Shown one piece after another: positions 51,182 through 62,121 of a stretch of DNA of 64,000 nt (positions within the stretch are counted from its first letter, which is position 1; each line of letters starts with the position of its first letter). The stretch comes from Asaia bogorensis. Its GTDB lineage: Bacteria; Pseudomonadota; Alphaproteobacteria; Acetobacterales; Acetobacteraceae. The stretch is from contig CAMBMS010000001.1 of assembly GCA_945868845.1 (NCBI GenBank), forward strand, positions 186,001 through 250,000, in the 5' to 3' direction. The notes beneath the pieces were generated by a model. It did not search any database, was not told the DNA's origin, and saw only the letters and a list, made by a program, of their open reading frames with translations. The position numbers and the translations under genes are program-made.

Positions 51182-52111
51182 ATGGCTGGAAAAGTCATCA
51201 TCAGCTGCGCCATCACCGGTGGCATCCACACGCCATCCATGTCGCCCTATCTGCCAATCACCCCCGAGCAGATCGCGCGCGACTCGATCGACGCGGCGGA
51301 GGCCGGCGCTGCCATCATCCACCTGCATGCGCGCGATCCGGAAACCGGTGAACCCACCCCTGATCCCGCCGTGTTTCAGCGCTTTTTACCGGTGATCAAA
51401 CAGGCCACGGACGCCGTGGTGAACATCACCACTGGCGGCGGGCTCAACATGACCCTGGAGGAGCGGCTCGCAGCGCCGTTGCAGGCCAGCCCGGAGATGT
51501 GCTCGCTCAACATGGGGTCGATGAATTTCAATATCTCCCAGGCCGGCAACCGGGTGAAGGAATGGAAATACGCCTGGGAAAAACCTTATCTGGACCGTAC
51601 CACCGGCTTCATCTTCCGTAACACCTTCGCCGACATCGAGGGGATCGTGGAAAAGCTCGGCAAGGGCCACGGCACGCGCTTCGAGTTTGAATGCTACGAT
51701 ATCGGCCATCTCTATAACCTGGCCTATTGCCTGGATAAGAAGATCGTCGAGCCGCCCTTGTTCGTGCAGTCCATCTTCGGCATCACCGGCGGCATTGGCG
51801 CCGATATTCAAAACCTAATGTTCGCGCGGGAAACCGCGAACCGGTTATTCGGCGATCAGTATATCTGGTCCGTTCTTGCCGCTGGGCGCCACCAGATGGC
51901 GTTCACCACCACCGCCGGCATTCTGGGCGGCAATGTCCGCGTGGGACTGGAAGACTCGCTTTATATCGGCAAGGGCGAGCTGGCGACTTCCAACGCGCAA
52001 CAGGTGGCAAAAATCCGCCGTATCCTGGAAGACCTGTCCCTGGAGATAGCGACACCAAAGGAAGCGCGAGAAATTCTAAAACTGAAGGGCGGCGACCGGG
52101 TTAAGTTCTGA
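51182..52111 (+). CDS. BKACE family protein (3-keto-5-aminohexanoate cleavage enzyme type)
   Basis: A zinc enzyme of 309 residues that condenses a beta-keto acid with acetyl-CoA in a Claisen-type exchange. KVIISCAITGGIHTPSMSPYLPITPEQIA is the family start, AAIIHLHARDPETGEP has the zinc histidines, and FEFECYDIGHLYNLAY and GITGGIGADIQNL complete the core. The beta-keto acid substrate varies widely across the family and cannot be told here. AGGAG precedes the ATG. M19 dipeptidase and aldo/keto reductase genes follow closely. Confidence 0.93.
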   Translation: MAGKVIISCAITGGIHTPSMSPYLPITPEQIARDSIDAAEAGAAIIHLHARDPETGEPTPDPAVFQRFLPVIKQATDAVVNITTGGGLNMTLEERLAAPLQASPEMCSLNMGSMNFNISQAGNRVKEWKYAWEKPYLDRTTGFIFRNTFADIEGIVEKLGKGHGTRFEFECYDIGHLYNLAYCLDKKIVEPPLFVQSIFGITGGIGADIQNLMFARETANRLFGDQYIWSVLAAGRHQMAFTTTAGILGGNVRVGLEDSLYIGKGELATSNAQQVAKIRRILEDLSLEIATPKEAREILKLKGGDRVKF

Positions 52112-52152
52112 TCGCCACTTGACGACACGGCGCGGGGGGAGAAGCGTTCGCC

Positions 52153-53175
52153 ATGACCGATTCTGATCCCGCCACGTGGCATGCGTCTCTCCTCACCATC
52201 GATACGCACATAGATATTCCCTGGCCCACCGGGCCCTCGCCCTTCGAGCGCGGGCCGCGCCATGTAGATCTGCCGAAGATGCGCGAAGGTGGACTGGCTG
52301 TCGGCTTCTTCGCCGCCTATGTACCGCAGCAGCGCCGCACGCCGGAAAACGAACAAGCCGCCTATGACCGCGCCATTGCCATGCTGCATGCCATCCGCGG
52401 CATGGGTGCCGCTCGCAACGATATTACGGCGCGCATCGCTGTCACCGCCGACGAGATCATGGCGATCAAGCGCGACGGCGTGCTGGGTATCGTGCCCTGC
52501 GTCGAAAACGGTTTTTCGATTGGCACCGACCTGTCGCGTCTCGCGGAATTCCGGGCATTGGGCGCGCGCTACCTCACCATCACGCATAACGGCCATAACG
52601 CCCTGGCCGACGCCGCCATTGCGCGACCGGATCTGGGCGATAGCCCCGCCGAACATGGCGGCCTTTCGGCGCTCGGCCGCGATGCCATCGGCATCATGAA
52701 CCAGCTGGGCATGTTGATCGACGTATCGCACATCTCTCGCGACGCGATGCTGCAAGCCGCCGCTATCTCGCGTTCGCCCACCGTGGCGACGCATTCCTGC
52801 GTACGCGCTTTGTGCGATCACCCGCGCAACATGGATGACGCGCAGCTCGACGTGCTGCGCGATGTCGGCGGCGTCATCCAGATCACCGCCGTCTCCGCTT
52901 TCCTGCGGGCCAAGGCGAGACCCGAAGATGTTACGCCAGTCGATTTCGCCGACCACATCGACTACGCCGTGCGGCGCATTGGCCTCGATCATGTCGGTAT
53001 TTCGTCGGATTTCGATGGTGGCGGCTGGTTCGCCGGCTGGCGCGATGCGTCGGAAAGCGCGAACATCACCACCGAGCTGATCCGGCGCGGCTATGACCGC
53101 GCCGCGCTACGACAGCTTTGGGGTGGTAATTTTTTACGGGTGATGCGACAGGCGGAGGAGATCGCCGATGCGTAG
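52153..53175 (+). CDS. Membrane dipeptidase family (peptidase M19)
   Basis: A 340-residue zinc dipeptidase of the renal dipeptidase family. TIDTHIDIPW gives the HxD site, GIVPCVENGF the bridging glutamate, THNGHN and ATHSCVRALCDHPRN the histidines, and HVGISSDFDGGGW the aspartate. No signal peptide is visible, so it is cytoplasmic and likely splits dipeptides or an amide in the pathway with BKACE. Its stop overlaps the start of the aldo/keto reductase gene by eight bases. Confidence 0.9.
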   Translation: MTDSDPATWHASLLTIDTHIDIPWPTGPSPFERGPRHVDLPKMREGGLAVGFFAAYVPQQRRTPENEQAAYDRAIAMLHAIRGMGAARNDITARIAVTADEIMAIKRDGVLGIVPCVENGFSIGTDLSRLAEFRALGARYLTITHNGHNALADAAIARPDLGDSPAEHGGLSALGRDAIGIMNQLGMLIDVSHISRDAMLQAAAISRSPTVATHSCVRALCDHPRNMDDAQLDVLRDVGGVIQITAVSAFLRAKARPEDVTPVDFADHIDYAVRRIGLDHVGISSDFDGGGWFAGWRDASESANITTELIRRGYDRAALRQLWGGNFLRVMRQAEEIADA

Positions 53176-54004
53176 ACTGCGCCTAGCGCATGGCGTGGAT
53201 GTGAGCGCCCTGGGCCAGGGCACCTGGCTGATGGCCGAGGGCAAGCGGCGCGCAAAAGATGAAGAGGCCGCGCTGGCGCTGGGCGTCGATCTCGGCATGA
53301 CCCTGATCGACACCGCCGAAATGTATGGCTCCGGAAAGTCCGAGGACCTAATCGGGCGAGTGATCAAAACTCGACGTGACGAGGTTTTCCTGGTCTCAAA
53401 AGTCTATCCACACAACGCCTCCCGCGATGGCGTGCCCATTGCCTGCGCGCGCAGCCTAAAACGCCTTGGTGTCGAGAGGATCGATCTTTATTTACTTCAC
53501 TGGCGCGGTGGCATTCCGTTGGCGGAAACTGTCGCAGCGTTCGAAAAATTAAGGATGGACGGCAAGATCGGTGCCTGGGGCGTATCCAATTTCAACACCG
53601 AGGACATGGTAGAACTCGCCACAATTCCCGGCGGCCAACACTGCGTCGCCAACCAGGTACTGTACCACCCAGACAGTCGTGGCATCGAATACGATCTGCT
53701 GCCCTATTGCGCAGAACAAAACATCGCGGTGATGGCCTATTCACCACTTGGTCATTCCGGCACCCCGTTGCGCTCGCGCGCCCTGGCCGAAATCGCCAAG
53801 AGACATAACGTCACGCCGGCACAAATCGCTATCGCCTGGGGCATGCGCCATCCGCATGTCATTTCCATTCCCAAGTCCGGCGATATCGCGCATGTGCGGG
53901 AAAATTCTGCAGCGGCCGATATCGTTCTAAGCGCGGACGACTTCGCCATTATCGACACGACGCATAAGCCACCACGCCGCAAGCAGGCGCTGGACATACT
54001 GTGA
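53168..54004 (+). CDS. Aldo/keto reductase
   Basis: NAD(P)H-dependent oxidoreductase with a TIM barrel, 278 residues. The catalytic tetrad is visible: Asp in LIDTAEMYG with Tyr, Lys in FLVSKVYPHNA, and His in LYLLHWRGG. GVSNFN and PKSG (cofactor) follow in order. It is related to AKR5/YeaE-like bacterial enzymes of broad specificity. It overlaps the dipeptidase gene, and hyfB starts 13 bases after its stop. Confidence 0.92.
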   Translation: MRRLRLAHGVDVSALGQGTWLMAEGKRRAKDEEAALALGVDLGMTLIDTAEMYGSGKSEDLIGRVIKTRRDEVFLVSKVYPHNASRDGVPIACARSLKRLGVERIDLYLLHWRGGIPLAETVAAFEKLRMDGKIGAWGVSNFNTEDMVELATIPGGQHCVANQVLYHPDSRGIEYDLLPYCAEQNIAVMAYSPLGHSGTPLRSRALAEIAKRHNVTPAQIAIAWGMRHPHVISIPKSGDIAHVRENSAAADIVLSADDFAIIDTTHKPPRRKQALDIL

Positions 54005-54017
54005 GCAGAGGTGCGGC

Positions 54018-56033
54018 GTGATTACGATTGCCCTGCATGGCCTGGTAGCCATCCTGCTGGGCCTTGCGGGGCTGGGTGTGGTCGGCACTTTCAGCAAAGG
54101 CCGGGCATCGTTCGTGCATCAGGGCTGCGCGATCCTCTGCGCGCTCGGCGCGTTATTGTCGATCACGGCCTTGCTTCTGCCGGGCGCGGCCACGCTGGCC
54201 TTGCCGGTCGGCCTGCCGGGCAAGGCGATGCAGCTAGCACTGGACCCGCTATCGCTGGTCTTCCTGCTGCTGCTGTTCGTCACCGCCACGGCGGCCGCGG
54301 TGTTCGCGCTAGAACAGCACGCGCCAGAAGAAGCCCGTGCTATGCCTTTTTTTCCCGTCTTCATCGCCGCCATGGCGCTCGCCTTACTGGCAGCGGATGC
54401 CTTTACTTTTCTGGTCGGCTTCGAGTTGATGTCGCTCGCCTCCTGGGCCACGGTTTTGTACCGCCATGAGGAAGACCGTTCGCGCAGCGCCGCCTTGTTC
54501 TATCTCGGCATGGCGAGCTTTAGCGCGGCCTGCCTGATCCCAGCCTTCGCGTTGCTCGGCGGCGGCGAGCCCGATTTCGCGGCGATGCGCGCGCTGCCGC
54601 CGGAGGGCTGGCACGCGTTCCTGGTCCTCGCTTTGGTGGTGCTGGGTGCGGGTTCCAAGGCCGGGTTGGCGCCGCTGCATCTGTGGCTACCGCTCGCCCA
54701 TCCGGCCGCTCCCAGCCATATATCTGCCCTGATGTCCGGAGCGATGACGAAGGTGGCGCTCTACGTCATCATTCGCGTGCTGTTCGATCTGTGCGGCCCA
54801 GCGCAGCCGATCTGGTTCGGCTATCCGCTGCTCGTAATGGGCTCGGCCTCCGCCATCCTTGGCGCCTTGCGGGCCAATATGGAGAGCGACCTAAAATCGG
54901 TTCTGGCAGCCAGCACGATCGAGAATGTCGGCCTCGTCGCCATCGGCCTCGGCCTGGCGCTGCTAGCGCGCGGCGCCGACCTGGCGCCGTTGGCGGCCCT
55001 CGCCCTGGCCGGAGCGCTGTTACATATATTGACCCACGGCGTGTTCAAGACTTTGCTGTTCCTCGGCGCCGGCGCGGCGCAGCATGGCGGCGGCAGCCGG
55101 ATATTGCAGCGTCTCGGCGGGCTGGTGCATCGCATGCCGGTCACCACCGCCTGCATGATCGCCGGCTGCATCTGCCTCGCCGCCCTGCCACCCGGACCCG
55201 GCTTCGCGAGCGAATGGCTGCTGTTCCAGGCCGTTCTCGCCGCGCCACGCATCGGTGGTCTCGCCCTGCAAACCTGCCTCACGGTCGTCGCCGCGCTGAT
55301 GGCCATGGCCGCCGCGCTGGCCGCCACCGCCGCCATTCGCCTGCTCGGCGTCGCCTTTCTCGGCCGCCCGCGCACCCCGCGCGTCGCCGGAGCGCAGGAA
55401 GCCGGGCCCGCCGCGCGCGCCGCCATGCTGGGCCTCGTCGCACTCTCCGCCGTGATCGGACTTTTCCCGACCAGCGCGCTGGCCCTAATCGAGCCGGCGA
55501 TCCGCCAGATGCTGCGCACCCACCTGTCCGGCCAGATCGGTGTGCTGAGCCTCCATCCCAGCGCGGACGCGCCCGGCTACACGGCGCTGATCACCGCCTT
55601 GCTGCTGGCGGCCAGTGGTATCGGCATTTTCCTCCTCCTGCGGCGCTGGGCGGTGGCCGGGCATCGGCGCGGCCCAGCCTGGGCCTGCGGCTTTGCCGCC
55701 CCGCCCGCCTGGCTGCCCTTCGGCGACCCGGCGACCCAATATGGCGGCGCCTCCTTTGCCCAACCGCTGCGCCGGGCACTCGGCACCGCGTTGCTGGCGG
55801 CGCGGGAGGAGGTGGACATACCGCGCCCAGGTGAAACACGAGCTGGCCGCCACAGCGTGACGCTGCGCGACCCGGCGGAGCCCTGGCTGTTCGCCCCGAT
55901 CGGGCGCTGGCGCGAAAAAATCGTCGGCATCGCCGATGCCATGCAATTCCTCACCATCCGCCAAACCTTGTCGGTGATGTTCGCCGTGCTGATACTGTTC
56001 TTGGCCAGCATAGCGGTGGTGGAGACATGGTGA
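54018..56033 (+). CDS. hyfB: Hydrogenase-4 component B-like membrane subunit (NuoL/MrpA-type)
   Basis: A 671-residue antiporter-like membrane protein with about 15 helices. It has the proton-channel pattern of HyfB/HycC: FELMSLASWATVLYRHEE, GAGSKAGLAPLHLWLPLAHPAAPSHISALMSGAMTK with channel lysines, ENVGLVAIGLGLA, LLHILTHGVFKTLLFLGAG and LPPGPGFASEWLLFQ. A GTG start at 54018 follows AGAGG. It is the first gene of a six-gene unit in which every gene overlaps the next. It should pump protons or sodium ions, driven by the peripheral arm. Confidence 0.92.
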   Translation: MITIALHGLVAILLGLAGLGVVGTFSKGRASFVHQGCAILCALGALLSITALLLPGAATLALPVGLPGKAMQLALDPLSLVFLLLLFVTATAAAVFALEQHAPEEARAMPFFPVFIAAMALALLAADAFTFLVGFELMSLASWATVLYRHEEDRSRSAALFYLGMASFSAACLIPAFALLGGGEPDFAAMRALPPEGWHAFLVLALVVLGAGSKAGLAPLHLWLPLAHPAAPSHISALMSGAMTKVALYVIIRVLFDLCGPAQPIWFGYPLLVMGSASAILGALRANMESDLKSVLAASTIENVGLVAIGLGLALLARGADLAPLAALALAGALLHILTHGVFKTLLFLGAGAAQHGGGSRILQRLGGLVHRMPVTTACMIAGCICLAALPPGPGFASEWLLFQAVLAAPRIGGLALQTCLTVVAALMAMAAALAATAAIRLLGVAFLGRPRTPRVAGAQEAGPAARAAMLGLVALSAVIGLFPTSALALIEPAIRQMLRTHLSGQIGVLSLHPSADAPGYTALITALLLAASGIGIFLLLRRWAVAGHRRGPAWACGFAAPPAWLPFGDPATQYGGASFAQPLRRALGTALLAAREEVDIPRPGETRAGRHSVTLRDPAEPWLFAPIGRWREKIVGIADAMQFLTIRQTLSVMFAVLILFLASIAVVETW

Positions 56034-57684: not shown

Positions 57685-59162
57685 ATGTGTCGGCCATGAC
57701 CCCGTGGGAATTGTTCCTGCCCGTTGGCTGGCCGGCGCTGCTGCCCTTCCTCGCCGCCATCTTGCTGGCCCTGATCCCATCCTGGCGCATCGGCGCCTGG
57801 GTCAATGCCGCCGCCGCGACCGCCGGCTTTCTGCTGGCCTGCACCCTGCCCTGGAAAATCGGCCATGTCGGAGCGTTTTTACTGGTCGACCGGCTGGCGA
57901 CGCATTTCGCCATTCTGACGGCGTTCGTGGCCATGACCACCGCCTGGTTCAGCCTCACCTATATCCGCGCGGAAATCCTGGCCCGGCGCATCGACCGCTC
58001 CAGGCTGCGGCTTTATCATGCCATGTTCCAGACCTTCGCTGGCGGCATGCAACTGGCGCTGCTGTCCAACAATCTCGGCGTCACCTGGGTGGCGGTGGAG
58101 ACCGCGACCATCGCCGCCGTCCTCGTCGTCGGACTGCCACGCACCACCGAGGCGGTCCAAGCATCCTGGAAATTCTTTTTGGTCTGTGGCGTCGGCATTG
58201 CCCTCGCACTGTTCGGTACCGTGGTGCTTTACTTGGCAGCCCTGCCAGCCCTAGGGCCAGGGTTGGCGGCGATGAGCTGGAGCGGGCTTGGCCCAGCGGC
58301 GGCGAAATGCAATGGCGCGGTGCTGAACCTAGCATTCGTGTTCCTGCTGCTGGGCTACGGCACCAAGGCAGGACTAGCACCGCTGCATGGCTGGATGCCC
58401 GATGCCCATGCCGAAGGCCCTACCCCGGTCTCCGCCGTGCTGGCGGGTTCGATCCTCAACGTGGCGTTGTTCGTCATTCTGCGCCTGCGCGCCATCATGG
58501 ACAGCAATGCCGACGCCGGTGCCGGCGCCATCGCGCCCGGCCCGCCGATCATGACCTTAGGACTGCTCTCCCTGCTACTCGCCGCCTTTAGCCTGTGGCG
58601 GCGGCGCGACGTGAAACGGTTTTTTGCCTTTTCCACCATCGAGCAATCAGGCATTTCCGCCTTTGCCTTCGGCCTTGGCGGGCCGGCGGCGACCTTTGCG
58701 GGGTTATTACACTTAACGCTGCACACCCTGACCAAGGCCGGCATTTTCCAATGCGTGGGGCGGGCGGCGCAGCTGAAGGGTGGGCAGAGATTCACCGACA
58801 TCGGCGGCTTGATCCCCTCCCACCCCGCCCTCGGCCTGACCCTGGCCGCGGGCATCATCGCCCTCGCTGCCCTGCCCCCCTTCGGCCTGTTCGCCAGCGA
58901 GTTTCTGATCGTCACCGATACCATTCGCCGCCAACCCTGGCTCGCCGTGCCGCTCGGCCTCGGCATTCTGGTGGGCGCCTGGGCGGTATTGATGCGCCTG
59001 CAAAGCCTGTGTTTCGGCCCCGCAACACCGGATCGCGGACTGGCCCCGACGGCGCTACTGCTGGCGCCGGTCTGGATCCATCTCGGCCTTGTCGTGCTGA
59101 TCGGCCTTGCCATGCCGGCGCCGCTGTTTGCCTGGATGTCCATGATCGCCGGGGGGTCATGA
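57681..59162 (+). CDS. hyfF: Hydrogenase-4 component F-like membrane subunit (NuoN/MrpD-type)
   Basis: A 493-residue antiporter-like subunit. Channel residues appear in GVTWVAVETATIAAVLVV (Glu), ASWKFFLVCGVG (Lys), GYGTKAGLAPLHGWMPDAHAEGPTPVSAVLAGSILN (Lys, His) and HLTLHTLTKAGIFQCVGR. HyfB plus HyfF give two pump-like subunits; a HyfD-like third is absent. It overlaps hyfE and hyfG by 4 and 1 bases. Confidence 0.92.
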   Translation: MNVSAMTPWELFLPVGWPALLPFLAAILLALIPSWRIGAWVNAAAATAGFLLACTLPWKIGHVGAFLLVDRLATHFAILTAFVAMTTAWFSLTYIRAEILARRIDRSRLRLYHAMFQTFAGGMQLALLSNNLGVTWVAVETATIAAVLVVGLPRTTEAVQASWKFFLVCGVGIALALFGTVVLYLAALPALGPGLAAMSWSGLGPAAAKCNGAVLNLAFVFLLLGYGTKAGLAPLHGWMPDAHAEGPTPVSAVLAGSILNVALFVILRLRAIMDSNADAGAGAIAPGPPIMTLGLLSLLLAAFSLWRRRDVKRFFAFSTIEQSGISAFAFGLGGPAATFAGLLHLTLHTLTKAGIFQCVGRAAQLKGGQRFTDIGGLIPSHPALGLTLAAGIIALAALPPFGLFASEFLIVTDTIRRQPWLAVPLGLGILVGAWAVLMRLQSLCFGPATPDRGLAPTALLLAPVWIHLGLVVLIGLAMPAPLFAWMSMIAGGS

Positions 59163-60685
59163 TGAGCGACGCGGCGCAGCGCCCCGCCAGTACGATCATC
59201 CGCGCCGGCGCGGCGCAAAATTGCCAACCCTGGCCGCGCATGCGGCTGCGCCAGGATGCCTGGGGGGGGATGGCGACCGCACTCGCCCGCGAACCCTCCC
59301 TCGACCTCATCGCCCTCTGGGCCGACTCCGACGAGGTCCATGCGCTGTTCGCCGACGAAGCCGCCCACGCCATTCTCTGCGCCTCCGTCCCCGTCGAGGC
59401 CGGCCGCTACCCGGCCCTTTCCCCCAGCCGCCCCGGCGCCGCCTGGTATGAGCGTATGATCGCCGACCTGTGGGGCCACGCGGCGCAGGGTGGCACCGAC
59501 GGGCGCGCCTGGCTGGATCATGGGCGCTGGCCCAACACCCTGCCGATGGCCGCGCGGCCTGGTCCCGCCGGCCTGGCCCCTGAGCCGCCGGAATTCCTCC
59601 CCACCGAGGGCGAGGATTTGCACCAGATCGCCGTCGGTCCCATCCATGCCGGCATTATCGAGCCTGGCCATTTCCGTTTCACCGCCCAGGGTGAGACCAT
59701 CGCGCGGCTCGAAATCCGGCTCGGCTATACCCATAAGGGCACGCTCGGCCTGATGCGCGGCAAATCCCCCCGCGTTGCCGCCCGCTTCGCCGCCCGTCTG
59801 TCGGGCGACGCAACCGTTGCCCATTCCGTCGCGTTCGCCCGCGCCACCGAGGCCGCCTTGCGCGTCACCGCCCCCGACCGCGCCGCCACCCTGCGCGCGG
59901 TGATGGCGGAGCTGGAGCGTGTGGCAAATCATCTCGGCGATGTCGGCGCCATCTGCAACGATGCTAGCTTCGCCTTCGCCCTCGCCCGTTTCGGCTTCTT
60001 ACGCGAAACCATCCTACGCGTCGCCAACGCCGCCTTCGGCCATCGGTTAATGATGGATTGCATCATCCCCGGCGGCATCGCGGCCGACCTCGCCCCCGGC
60101 GGCACTGAGACCATCCTGAGCGCCCTAGCCGCTGTGGACGACGAACTGCCCGACCTTATTCGGGTCTATGAGAACTATGCCAGCCTGACGGACCGCATGG
60201 TCACCACCGGCATCATCGCCCCCGCTTTGGCCGCGCATTTCGCCGCCGGCGGTCCTGTCGGTCGCGCCGCAGACCGCTGCGTTGACGCGCGGCGCTTCCC
60301 CGGCTATCCGCCCTACACCGACTTTCCGCCCAAAATCCCGGTCCTCACCGCCAGCGATGTCGATGCCCGCGTCCGCATCCGCCTCGCCGAAATCCCCGAA
60401 AGCACCCGGCTGATCCGCGCCATGCTGGATACTTTGCCCGGCGGCCCCATCAGCGAGCCGCTGCCCATCGGCACTGGCGAAGGCCTCGGCGTCGCCGAAA
60501 GTTTTCGCGGCGATGCCTGGCACTTCGTCCGCCTCGAAGGCGGGCTAATCACGGCGAATTTTATGCGCGACCCCAGTTGGGCGCACTGGCCGCTGCTGGA
60601 AGCCGCCATCGAGGATAATATCGTCGCCGACTTCCCGCTGGTGAACAAATCCGTCAATGGCTCCTACTCGGGAGTGGACCTGTAA
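59162..60685 (+). CDS. Hydrogenase-4 component G-like large subunit lacking all NiFe cysteines
   Basis: A 507-residue fusion: a NuoC-like N-terminal domain (about 1-150) and a NuoD/HyfG-like large-subunit domain (about 155-507; GETIARLEIRLGYTHKGTLGLM, ELERVANHLGDVGAICND, RFGFLRETIL). In true NiFe enzymes the first motif is RxCGxCxxxH and the last is DPCxxC. Here they read ARLSGDATVAH (211-221) and NKSVNGSYSGVDL (495-507), so all four nickel-binding cysteines are gone, and the chain ends at the position of the second motif. It is therefore like the energy-converting hydrogenase-related (Ehr) group. The frame is open far upstream, but the start at 59162 fits the hyfF stop and family length. Confidence 0.88.
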   Translation: MSDAAQRPASTIIRAGAAQNCQPWPRMRLRQDAWGGMATALAREPSLDLIALWADSDEVHALFADEAAHAILCASVPVEAGRYPALSPSRPGAAWYERMIADLWGHAAQGGTDGRAWLDHGRWPNTLPMAARPGPAGLAPEPPEFLPTEGEDLHQIAVGPIHAGIIEPGHFRFTAQGETIARLEIRLGYTHKGTLGLMRGKSPRVAARFAARLSGDATVAHSVAFARATEAALRVTAPDRAATLRAVMAELERVANHLGDVGAICNDASFAFALARFGFLRETILRVANAAFGHRLMMDCIIPGGIAADLAPGGTETILSALAAVDDELPDLIRVYENYASLTDRMVTTGIIAPALAAHFAAGGPVGRAADRCVDARRFPGYPPYTDFPPKIPVLTASDVDARVRIRLAEIPESTRLIRAMLDTLPGGPISEPLPIGTGEGLGVAESFRGDAWHFVRLEGGLITANFMRDPSWAHWPLLEAAIEDNIVADFPLVNKSVNGSYSGVDL

Positions 60686-61296: not shown

Positions 61297-61845
61297 TTAG
61301 CCCCGTGCCGTTTGCGCGCGCAGTTCCCGGGCACGTGACAAAACCTTGTTTTCGATCTCGCTGATGGTTACCTGGCTGACCGAGGTGTCGATCCAGCGGC
61401 CGCCTTGCAGCACCTGGCGGAAGATGGAGATGCGCAAGCCGTCGGCGCGCAGTTGCCGACCGAGTATAAAGGCGGTGGCCTTGAACCGTTCGCCGGGGGT
61501 GGCTGGTGGTTCGTACCAGTCGGTGATGATCACGCCGCCGAAAGGATCGGCGGAGGCGAGCGGCATGAAGCCGAGCGTATCCAACGCCCCACGCCATAGA
61601 TAGGCATTCACCCCCAGCGCGGCACCGTCATTCGACCCGCTGGCACCACCCTGTTTACCGCCGACGCCGAGCACGATGCCGGTATCACCGAACAAATTGC
61701 CGCTGGCGGCACCGCGGTAGCGCGGGTCGTTATATTCGTCTTCCGACACATAGCGACTATTGCCGCAGGCGGAGAGGGCGAGGGACAACAGTAACGTCAC
61801 GACGATTGGCAGGAAGGTCTTGGTTAAGCGAAAAGGCGGCATCAT
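61297..61845 (-). CDS. DUF3576 family lipoprotein
   Basis: A 182-residue lipoprotein with signal LTKTFLPIVVTLLLSLALSACGNS (lipobox LSAC). The mature part has NAYLWRGALDTLGFMPLASADPFGGVIITDWYEPPATPGERFK, the core of DUF3576, and QVTISEIENKVLSRARELR at the end. It is widespread in alphaproteobacteria next to lptD/lol-type or translation genes; its role is unknown, probably at the outer membrane. Two adjacent ATGs (61845, 61842) are possible starts. It is convergent with hyfI. Confidence 0.88.
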   Translation of the reverse strand: MMPPFRLTKTFLPIVVTLLLSLALSACGNSRYVSEDEYNDPRYRGAASGNLFGDTGIVLGVGGKQGGASGSNDGAALGVNAYLWRGALDTLGFMPLASADPFGGVIITDWYEPPATPGERFKATAFILGRQLRADGLRISIFRQVLQGGRWIDTSVSQVTISEIENKVLSRARELRAQTARG

Positions 61846-62121
61846 GGGCCTGTCGGTCTGGGTTAATCGCGCCGCCCGGATTGGCAGGCTGAGTGTATTT
61901 AGTGGGAACCCGGGCAGACGCCAAGGGGGCATGGTTACACACCAGGGTAATCGCACTTGGACATTGCTCCAGCCCATCTGCGTCAATGGACGATCCTCGT
62001 GACCGCCACCCTAGCGCAAGCGGGGGTCAAGCCCAGCCGCGTGCGGGTTGCTCGACCGGATCCCGGCTTGCGTCAGGGTGATGGAGCCGGGGTGACGGTG
62101 GACGGAATAGTACGGTGGCCC
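61846..62121. other. Intergenic region without a recognised gene
   Basis: About 275 bp upstream of the DUF3576 gene and downstream of the porin terminator. On the minus strand it should hold the DUF3576 promoter; GCTTGACC occurs near 62030, but no well-spaced -10 was found. No ORF with coding character is seen. Confidence 0.5.

Follow-up and report, generated by a model that had tools for sequence, protein, structure and literature searches.

The window analysed here, a 64,000-nucleotide stretch of the Asaia bogorensis genome (contig CAMBMS010000001.1, positions 186,001 to 250,000), carries on its + strand, at 59162-60685, an open reading frame (ORF) of 507 amino acids with no internal stops whose product, HyfG, resembles the large subunit of group 4 [NiFe] hydrogenases and lacks all four cysteine ligands of nickel. 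Comparison with relatives indicates that HyfG is real and intact and belongs to a widespread family related to hydrogenases and complex I; within this family it is an ordinary member of the energy-converting hydrogenase-related (Ehr) type, for which loss of the nickel ligands is a family trait. Judging from the alignments, the [4Fe-4S] ligands, the proton relay and the Lys and Glu residues of the antiporter subunits HyfB and HyfF have been retained, and the complex encoded in the window is predicted to be incapable of making or using H2 at a NiFe site.

The original prediction held that ARLSGDATVAH stands at the L1 site in place of RxCGxCxxxH, that the C-terminus reads NKSVNGSYSGVDL in place of DPCxxC, and that all four nickel ligands are gone. 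Translation of residues 211-221 and 495-507 bears out both readings, and in a MAFFT alignment C241, C244, C531 and C534 of E. coli HycE, the closest solved relative by sequence (7z0s_E, E 1.1e-49), correspond to S214, A217, S501 and G504. The alignment, which also included NuoD, places no nickel ligand in the HyfG columns. Displacement of the cysteines by a few residues was considered and rejected: many relatives have a Cys at column 494 (97 of 117 rows) or at column 500, beside ligand column 501 (102 of 117), both outside the ligand columns, and the window, with V494 and G500, has neither. The stop codon of HyfG aligns with HycE R537, and HycE extends 32 residues further; the C-terminal tail of hydrogenases is removed by cleavage during maturation. 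The listed members of the HyfG family with complete ends share one stop position, beyond which E. coli HycE and HyfG extend. A search of the organism's own genome (100% complete score) for HypD gave no match, with a positive E. coli control and the other Hyp proteins not searched. With no ligands, no tail and no HypD match, the protein cannot be any known kind of NiFe hydrogenase, in agreement with the original prediction. The same genome encodes a separate NuoD, which scores 165 bits in the HyfG search.

The relative at locus L002 (81% identical) has identical letters at the ligand places, save a Ser at 217, and the ratio of nonsynonymous to synonymous substitution (dN/dS) between the two hyfG genes is 0.129/0.901 with zero stops, which argues against an isolated sequencing error and confirms that the gene is intact. 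All six operon genes give dN/dS values of about 0.08-0.14 against L002, again with zero stops. Sequencing error and pseudogene were ruled out by the relatives, the dN/dS values and the intact ORFs.

The ligand loss itself thus stands, but it is not special to this gene. Columns were counted over 117 core rows, the window included, seven of which are near-copies. In 114 of them all four ligand columns are free of Cys, the remaining rows (L034, L092 and L151) having one Cys each, and removal of rows at least 99% alike leaves the same picture (107 of 110). Column 214 is Ser in 114 of the 117 rows, column 217 holds Ser in 107 and Ala in 6, including the window, column 501 is Ser in 110, and column 504 is Gly in every row.

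Other residues of HyfG are conserved as well. Roles have been described for the HycE residues that include the proton relay E193, R478, H284, E437 and R395 (PMC9474812; papers are cited by PubMed Central number and for those excerpts of their text that were available). The counterparts E167, R449, H257 and E410 are kept in 117/117 core rows and R368 in 116/117. The first of these also aligns with MbhL E21, reported as key for proton reduction in the membrane-bound hydrogenase (MBH; PMC7684303). The canopy Asp, HycE D529, which appears to be strictly conserved both among hydrogenases and in complex I (PMC9474812), is replaced by N499, an Asn in all 117 rows. D216 and N495 are likewise invariant, K496 is Lys in 115 rows and Arg in the other 2, and these three residues differ from those of all four hydrogenase and both NuoD rows aligned. 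Together, a retained relay, a family-wide change of the canopy Asp to Asn, and a near-invariant D216/N495/K496 set appear to be newly recognized for this family; a search of the open literature found nothing about the residues of the pocket, or about the Acetobacteraceae side-branch described below, the latter having been little targeted. Rows without the cysteines at 494 and 500 have V, I or N at the former or G, L or A at the latter; since the window and other rows hold other residues there, C494 and C500 are not needed throughout the family. An AlphaFold model of HyfG has a mean predicted local distance difference test score (pLDDT) of 84, with values below 50 at 141-190 and 503-507, and a Foldseek search with it returned HycE first (template modelling score 0.82, by query) and NuoCD next.

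A scan of genome contigs yielded 56 related loci, of which 50, with the window, entered alignment A1. HyfG matches of at least 500 bits were found in 47 of 299 Pseudomonadota genomes, its own included; the next match scores 306 bits, and the range of 253-306 bits holds true hydrogenases, one fragment and two side-branch members. Two loci read in this range, L142 and L143, have intact nickel motifs. Among 150 Acetobacteraceae genomes, 103 match at 1e-55 and 78 at 1e-154 or better. At 1e-20, 90 of 72,556 plasmid records match, among them records of Rhizobium, Azospirillum, Cupriavidus, Rhodococcus and Allomeiothermus but also true enterobacterial hydrogenases; in Rhizobium johnstonii 3841 the operon lies on plasmid pRL11 (RL_RS31255 to RL_RS31230). 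Annotations of the same gene vary from ‘NADH-quinone oxidoreductase subunit C’ to ‘nickel-dependent hydrogenase large subunit’ and ‘hydrogenase expression protein HypE’. Cysteine-free variants of other types occur on Alicyclobacillus and Caballeronia plasmids (e.g. RISGTATASH, DASLGLSYAG), and Ehr-like proteins therefore do not form one motif class. HypD is present in 23 and absent from 27 of the 50 genomes of A1 loci, for which completeness was not given, and 55 of the 78 core Acetobacteraceae carriers have no HypD match.

One cluster considered as a family member, L183 on plasmid AZO_p2 of Azospirillum lipoferum 4B, was excluded: the group 4 type complex encoded there retains the CGIC and DPCxxC motifs intact and is thus a different complex. 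It adjoins genes for an aldehyde ferredoxin oxidoreductase and a ubiquitin-like small modifier, and its large subunit terminates in DPCISCTDR with no tail.

The ‘perfect operon order’ of the original prediction holds for six subunits, encoded by a run of genes with overlapping ends in the order hyfB-C-E-F-G-I (Table 1); it does not extend to HyfH (ferredoxin-like), HyfA and HyfD, which are missing from the operon. None of E. coli hyfA, hyfD, hyfH and hyfJ is matched by a gene of the operon, the rest of the genome not having been searched, and the operon encodes no input subunit. The set of NuoL-like, formate hydrogenlyase subunit 4-like (NuoH type), HyfE-like, large and small subunits agrees with that of Ehr (ehrABCDLS of Methylacidiphilum, with relatives in Geobacter, Nitrospira and Sulfobacillus), whose large subunit also lacks the nickel motifs; subunit names follow the available text of PMC7894505, PMC13194489 and PMC6688271, and the match is by description, not by published EhrL sequences. 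The suggested likeness to Ehr complexes without an established reaction is supported by this operon match and by papers in which Ehr function is called unknown (PMC4378227, PMC10284858, PMC12342949) or open (PMC10432482). In Nitrospira moscoviensis, Ehr expression shows no rise with H2, as cited in PMC12342949.

Features of an electron path and of a pump are both recognizable. The HyfI cluster ligands C56, C59, C123 and C153 are all present in 109/109 core rows that are complete, three truncated ones being left out, and the cluster loop aligns without gaps to MbhJ and HycG. HyfB and HyfF retain the antiporter residues listed in Table 1. The motif of the type found in transmembrane helix (TM) 7 of antiporter subunits is present in 24/24 core loci, window included, while the TM8 Lys is not universal, being missing from HyfB of L005. 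The charged HyfC loop is retained with some changes among the 23 core loci aligned.

These data lead us to favour, with moderate confidence, a model in which the six subunits form an Ehr complex, related to complex I and to the group 4 hydrogenases, that acts as a redox-driven proton pump and whose pocket is polar and free of metal. A soluble carrier would dock on HyfI at the place of HyfH, and electrons would pass between the proximal HyfI cluster and a small, probably polar substrate that is not metal-held, in a putative pocket lined by D216, N495, K496, N499, Y502 and the C-terminal L507. Protons may enter via E167, and the redox step would drive proton translocation through HyfC, HyfB and HyfF. 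A bolder form of this model, which we put forward only tentatively, is that the former NiFe site is now a metal-free acid/base pocket (E167, D216, N495, K496, N499, R449) carrying out a redox reaction not known from hydrogenases, the sulfane sulfur reductase MBS and complex I, coupled to a working proton pump, and that in some lineages, such as that of Allomeiothermus silvanus, the proximal iron-sulfur cluster has been lost and the pump kept, leaving a complex I core without a redox centre of its own.

Natural losses among relatives bear on both forms. Twenty Acetobacteraceae sequences (L122-L141) form a clade (support 97/99) that stands in the tree beside the ten-member clade holding the window; the inner order of the former is unsure because several of its rows are long-branched, and the placement of hydrogenases and NuoD is unsure too, given long branches and uneven composition. 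In this side-branch the large-subunit pocket is eroded, the TM7- and TM12-type Lys motifs are found in none of 22 loci (L122-L141 and two L122 congeners; L173, L174), and HyfE has no match in 16 of the 22; the TM5 Glu persists in HyfF of L137 and L141. Of 18 small subunits found, 17 hold all four cluster cysteines. In three species of one side-branch genus (G445, G494, G495; small subunits at L122 10123-10701 on the + strand, L168 and L169) the same three of the four are lost. Across six ORFs compared among these species, dN/dS ranges over 0.12-0.47; hyfI gives about 0.35-0.39 and hyfG about 0.12-0.14. One of the hyfE-like comparisons contains one stop within the stretch that aligns.

The small subunit of A. 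silvanus DSM 9946 (L178 9278-10150, plasmid pMESIL01) is 51% identical to HyfI of the window over 123 residues without gaps. Its antiporter subunits match Proton_antipo_M at 1.7e-32 and 1.6e-46 and retain the Lys places, judged in part by pattern and in part by eye. The large subunit ends in NKSFDLSYAGCDL, and with RAGGE at L1 and an Asp at the canopy place it departs in some respects from the core members. An N-terminal extension of the small subunit contains CxxCxxC, with weak Pfam Fe-S domain matches only, and because of this stretch the subunit may not be cluster-free.

Several of these observations weigh against the redox-driven pump. The side-branch keeps the cysteines and loses the Lys motifs, so cluster and pump can part. 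In the A. silvanus small subunit the four cluster cysteines are replaced by T, D, E and S, so that a redox role of this cluster is not universal. No conserved electron donor gene flanks the operon, as judged from the best 25 of 157 Pfam families among 115 flanking proteins. HypD, found in 27 of the 150 Acetobacteraceae genomes, is commoner in core carriers (23/78) than in the others (4/72; Fisher p 1e-4, kinship ignored). Finally, the HyfG model is of low quality in the two loops most relevant to the pocket.

The alternative that HyfG belongs to a short complex I, a carrier-to-quinone oxidoreductase that reduces quinone at the former NiFe site although the customary His and Tyr are absent, seems unlikely to us. 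NuoD and NuoB share with HyfG and HyfI the fold, the absence of nickel ligands and the C-terminal end, NuoD being also tail-less with the same terminal residue; the antiporter residues match those of complex I, and quinone reduction by a formate dehydrogenase-Ehr complex has been suggested (PMC6349859, as excerpted). The quinone-binding features nevertheless differ: the His and Tyr of NuoD (Nqo4 H38, Y87) correspond to I166 (117/117 core rows) and G215 (115/117), and HyfI has C56-x-x-C59 in place of the tandem CC of NuoB. HyfG, unlike NuoD, keeps the hydrogenase Glu and Arg, with R449 where both NuoD rows have Lys. Pyrococcus MBS (PMC7684303, in part) is likewise a complex I relative with a depleted nickel site and no quinone His and Tyr. 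It keeps two of the four cysteines, where HyfG has none; it is said to lack the Glu of MbhL E21, which HyfG keeps; and its proximal cluster has three cysteines and a shortened loop, in contrast to the four cysteines and gapless loop of HyfI. The MbsL loop carries a single acidic residue (PMC9474812). E. coli HycE/HycG, the top match in sequence and fold, shares with the window the relay and the proximal cluster ligands, whereas the four nickel ligands, Asp529 and the last 32 residues of HycE have no counterpart in HyfG, and the HycB/HycF/FdhF input of formate hydrogenlyase has none in the window operon.

It is also improbable, in our judgement, that the peripheral arm is not an enzyme and caps an Mrp-like ion transporter in a structural or sensing role, with the cluster a sensor or leftover. 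The operon without an input subunit, the lack of a conserved partner among the flanking proteins scanned, the replaced cluster cysteines beside retained antiporter subunits in A. silvanus, and the loss of three cysteines in one Acetobacteraceae genus would all be consistent with such a cap, and Ehr is listed among possible pH homeostasis systems in an excerpt of PMC6688271. On the other hand, all complete core rows hold the four cluster ligands, the side-branch without Lys motifs keeps them in nearly every small subunit found, the pocket is conserved up to the last residue, and the CxxCxxC extension of A. silvanus makes it an uncertain example of a cluster-free complex.

There is a small chance that the partner is a formate dehydrogenase encoded elsewhere, as proposed for other Ehr complexes in the available parts of PMC6349859 and PMC7894505. 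In the latter, Geobacter Ehr subunits are reported to be more abundant on formate than in conditions with hydrogen, and a connection with formate dehydrogenase is suggested; the H2 production also suggested there does not fit a site without nickel ligands. No formate dehydrogenase or ferredoxin was seen among the best 25 of 157 flanking families, the rest of the genome not having been searched for a formate dehydrogenase. A decaying, no longer functional hydrogenase, as argued for Geobacter Ehr for want of a NiFe site (PMC13194489, in part), is highly unlikely here: a relaxed side-branch does exist within Acetobacteraceae, but the dN/dS values and the absence of stops point to purifying selection on six genes, the pocket has been replaced by another near-invariant set and not randomized, nearly a sixth of the Pseudomonadota genomes (the 47 above) carry the gene, and relatives are found on Rhodococcus and Allomeiothermus plasmids. 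Very improbable, too, is a different metalloenzyme binding another metal through Ser, Asp or Asn, for which S214, D216, N495, N499 and D506, all conserved, could act as ligands; K496 and R449, which lie in that region, would disfavour a cation, and the 115 flanking proteins revealed no conserved accessory gene next to the operon.

The features of the operon are collected in Table 1. Subunits were assigned by Pfam and NCBIfam profiles, several NCBIfam scores falling under their cut-offs.

Table 1. Features of the hyf-like operon of the window
Feature	Position	Strand	Basis and remarks
hyfB-like antiporter subunit, 671 aa, GTG start	54018..56033	+	E136, K214, K293, K344 at TM5/7/8/12 places; Pfam Proton_antipo_M 2.3e-44; alignment with E. 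coli HyfB, HycC, NuoL/M/N; NCBIfam hydrogenase 4 subunit B 2.8e-171, 571 bits, under cut-off 667
hyfC/NuoH-like membrane anchor, 323 aa	56027..56998	+	Charged loop AENGRVPVDNPATHLELTMVHEAMVLEYSG; Pfam NADHdh 8.7e-38
hyfE-like membrane subunit, 228 aa	56998..57684	+	NCBIfam PRK11492 2.4e-25, 90 bits, under cut-off 136
hyfF-like antiporter subunit, 493 aa	57681..59162	+	E140, K229, K312, K352; NCBIfam hydrogenase 4 subunit F 1.5e-169, above cut-off
hyfG/ehrL-like large subunit without nickel ligands, 507 aa	59162..60685	+	Complex1_49kDa 2.7e-29, NiFeSe_Hases 5.9e-07
beta1-beta2 loop GPIHAGIIEPGHF, hyfG residues 159-171	59636..59674	+	E167 aligned to HycE E193 and MbhL E21
L1 site ARLSGDATVAH, hyfG residues 211-221	59792..59824	+	Both nickel Cys replaced (S214, A217); new D216
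L2 site NKSVNGSYSGVDL, hyfG residues 495-507	60644..60682	+	Both nickel Cys replaced (S501, G504); N499 at canopy Asp place; N495 and K496 new; stop codon directly after
hyfI/ehrS-like small subunit, 173 aa	60685..61206	+	Proximal [4Fe-4S] ligands C56, C59, C123, C153; Pfam Oxidored_q6 1.6e-31; top PDB match HycG 2.9e-38

The 115 flanking proteins were hand-picked from lists (189 were counted in 53 loci, at least 150 listed, and about three fifths of them seen), and because simple gene calling gave many antisense ORFs the neighbourhood counts are rough. Helix-turn-helix was the commonest Pfam family (7), followed by Pyr_redox_2 (5), some of which represent a neighbour, read here as SelD-like, common to L019, L022 and L027; the other flavoprotein-type families DAO, Bac_luciferase and FAD_binding_3 occurred twice each. 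A partner gene conserved beside the operon across loci was sought and none was found. A Fer4_NifH search of the organism's own genome gave two short matches, which were not used.

In many relatives a helix-turn-helix gene, a candidate regulator, directly precedes hyfB (20 loci in one cluster); it is absent from the Azospirillum thermophilum record and from the window. Small genes of this kind stand before hyfB at L163, L164, L166, L176, L145, L149 and L153 (Rhizobium, Bradyrhizobium and others), those of L149 and L153 carrying a cupin domain. The slot in the window is taken by an aldo/keto reductase gene, the last named of a run (51182-54004, +) that also encodes a beta-keto acid cleavage enzyme and an M19 dipeptidase, reads in the same direction as hyfB and stops 13 bases short of it. 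Genes for the cleavage enzyme and the dipeptidase (the first two clusters) also precede hyfB at L002. Downstream of the operon, a DUF3576 gene lies on the opposite strand (61297-61986, -).

The question of Ehr function becomes testable through the conserved site that replaced the nickel ligands and through the series of natural losses: pocket, canopy position and losses name precise residues to mutate, and tests are practical because Rhizobium johnstonii 3841, a possible host, carries the operon. The family is common, and an answer would bear on how redox chemistry and pumping are coupled in complex I. If the bolder form of the redox-driven pump model is true, a complex I core can run without a redox centre of its own.

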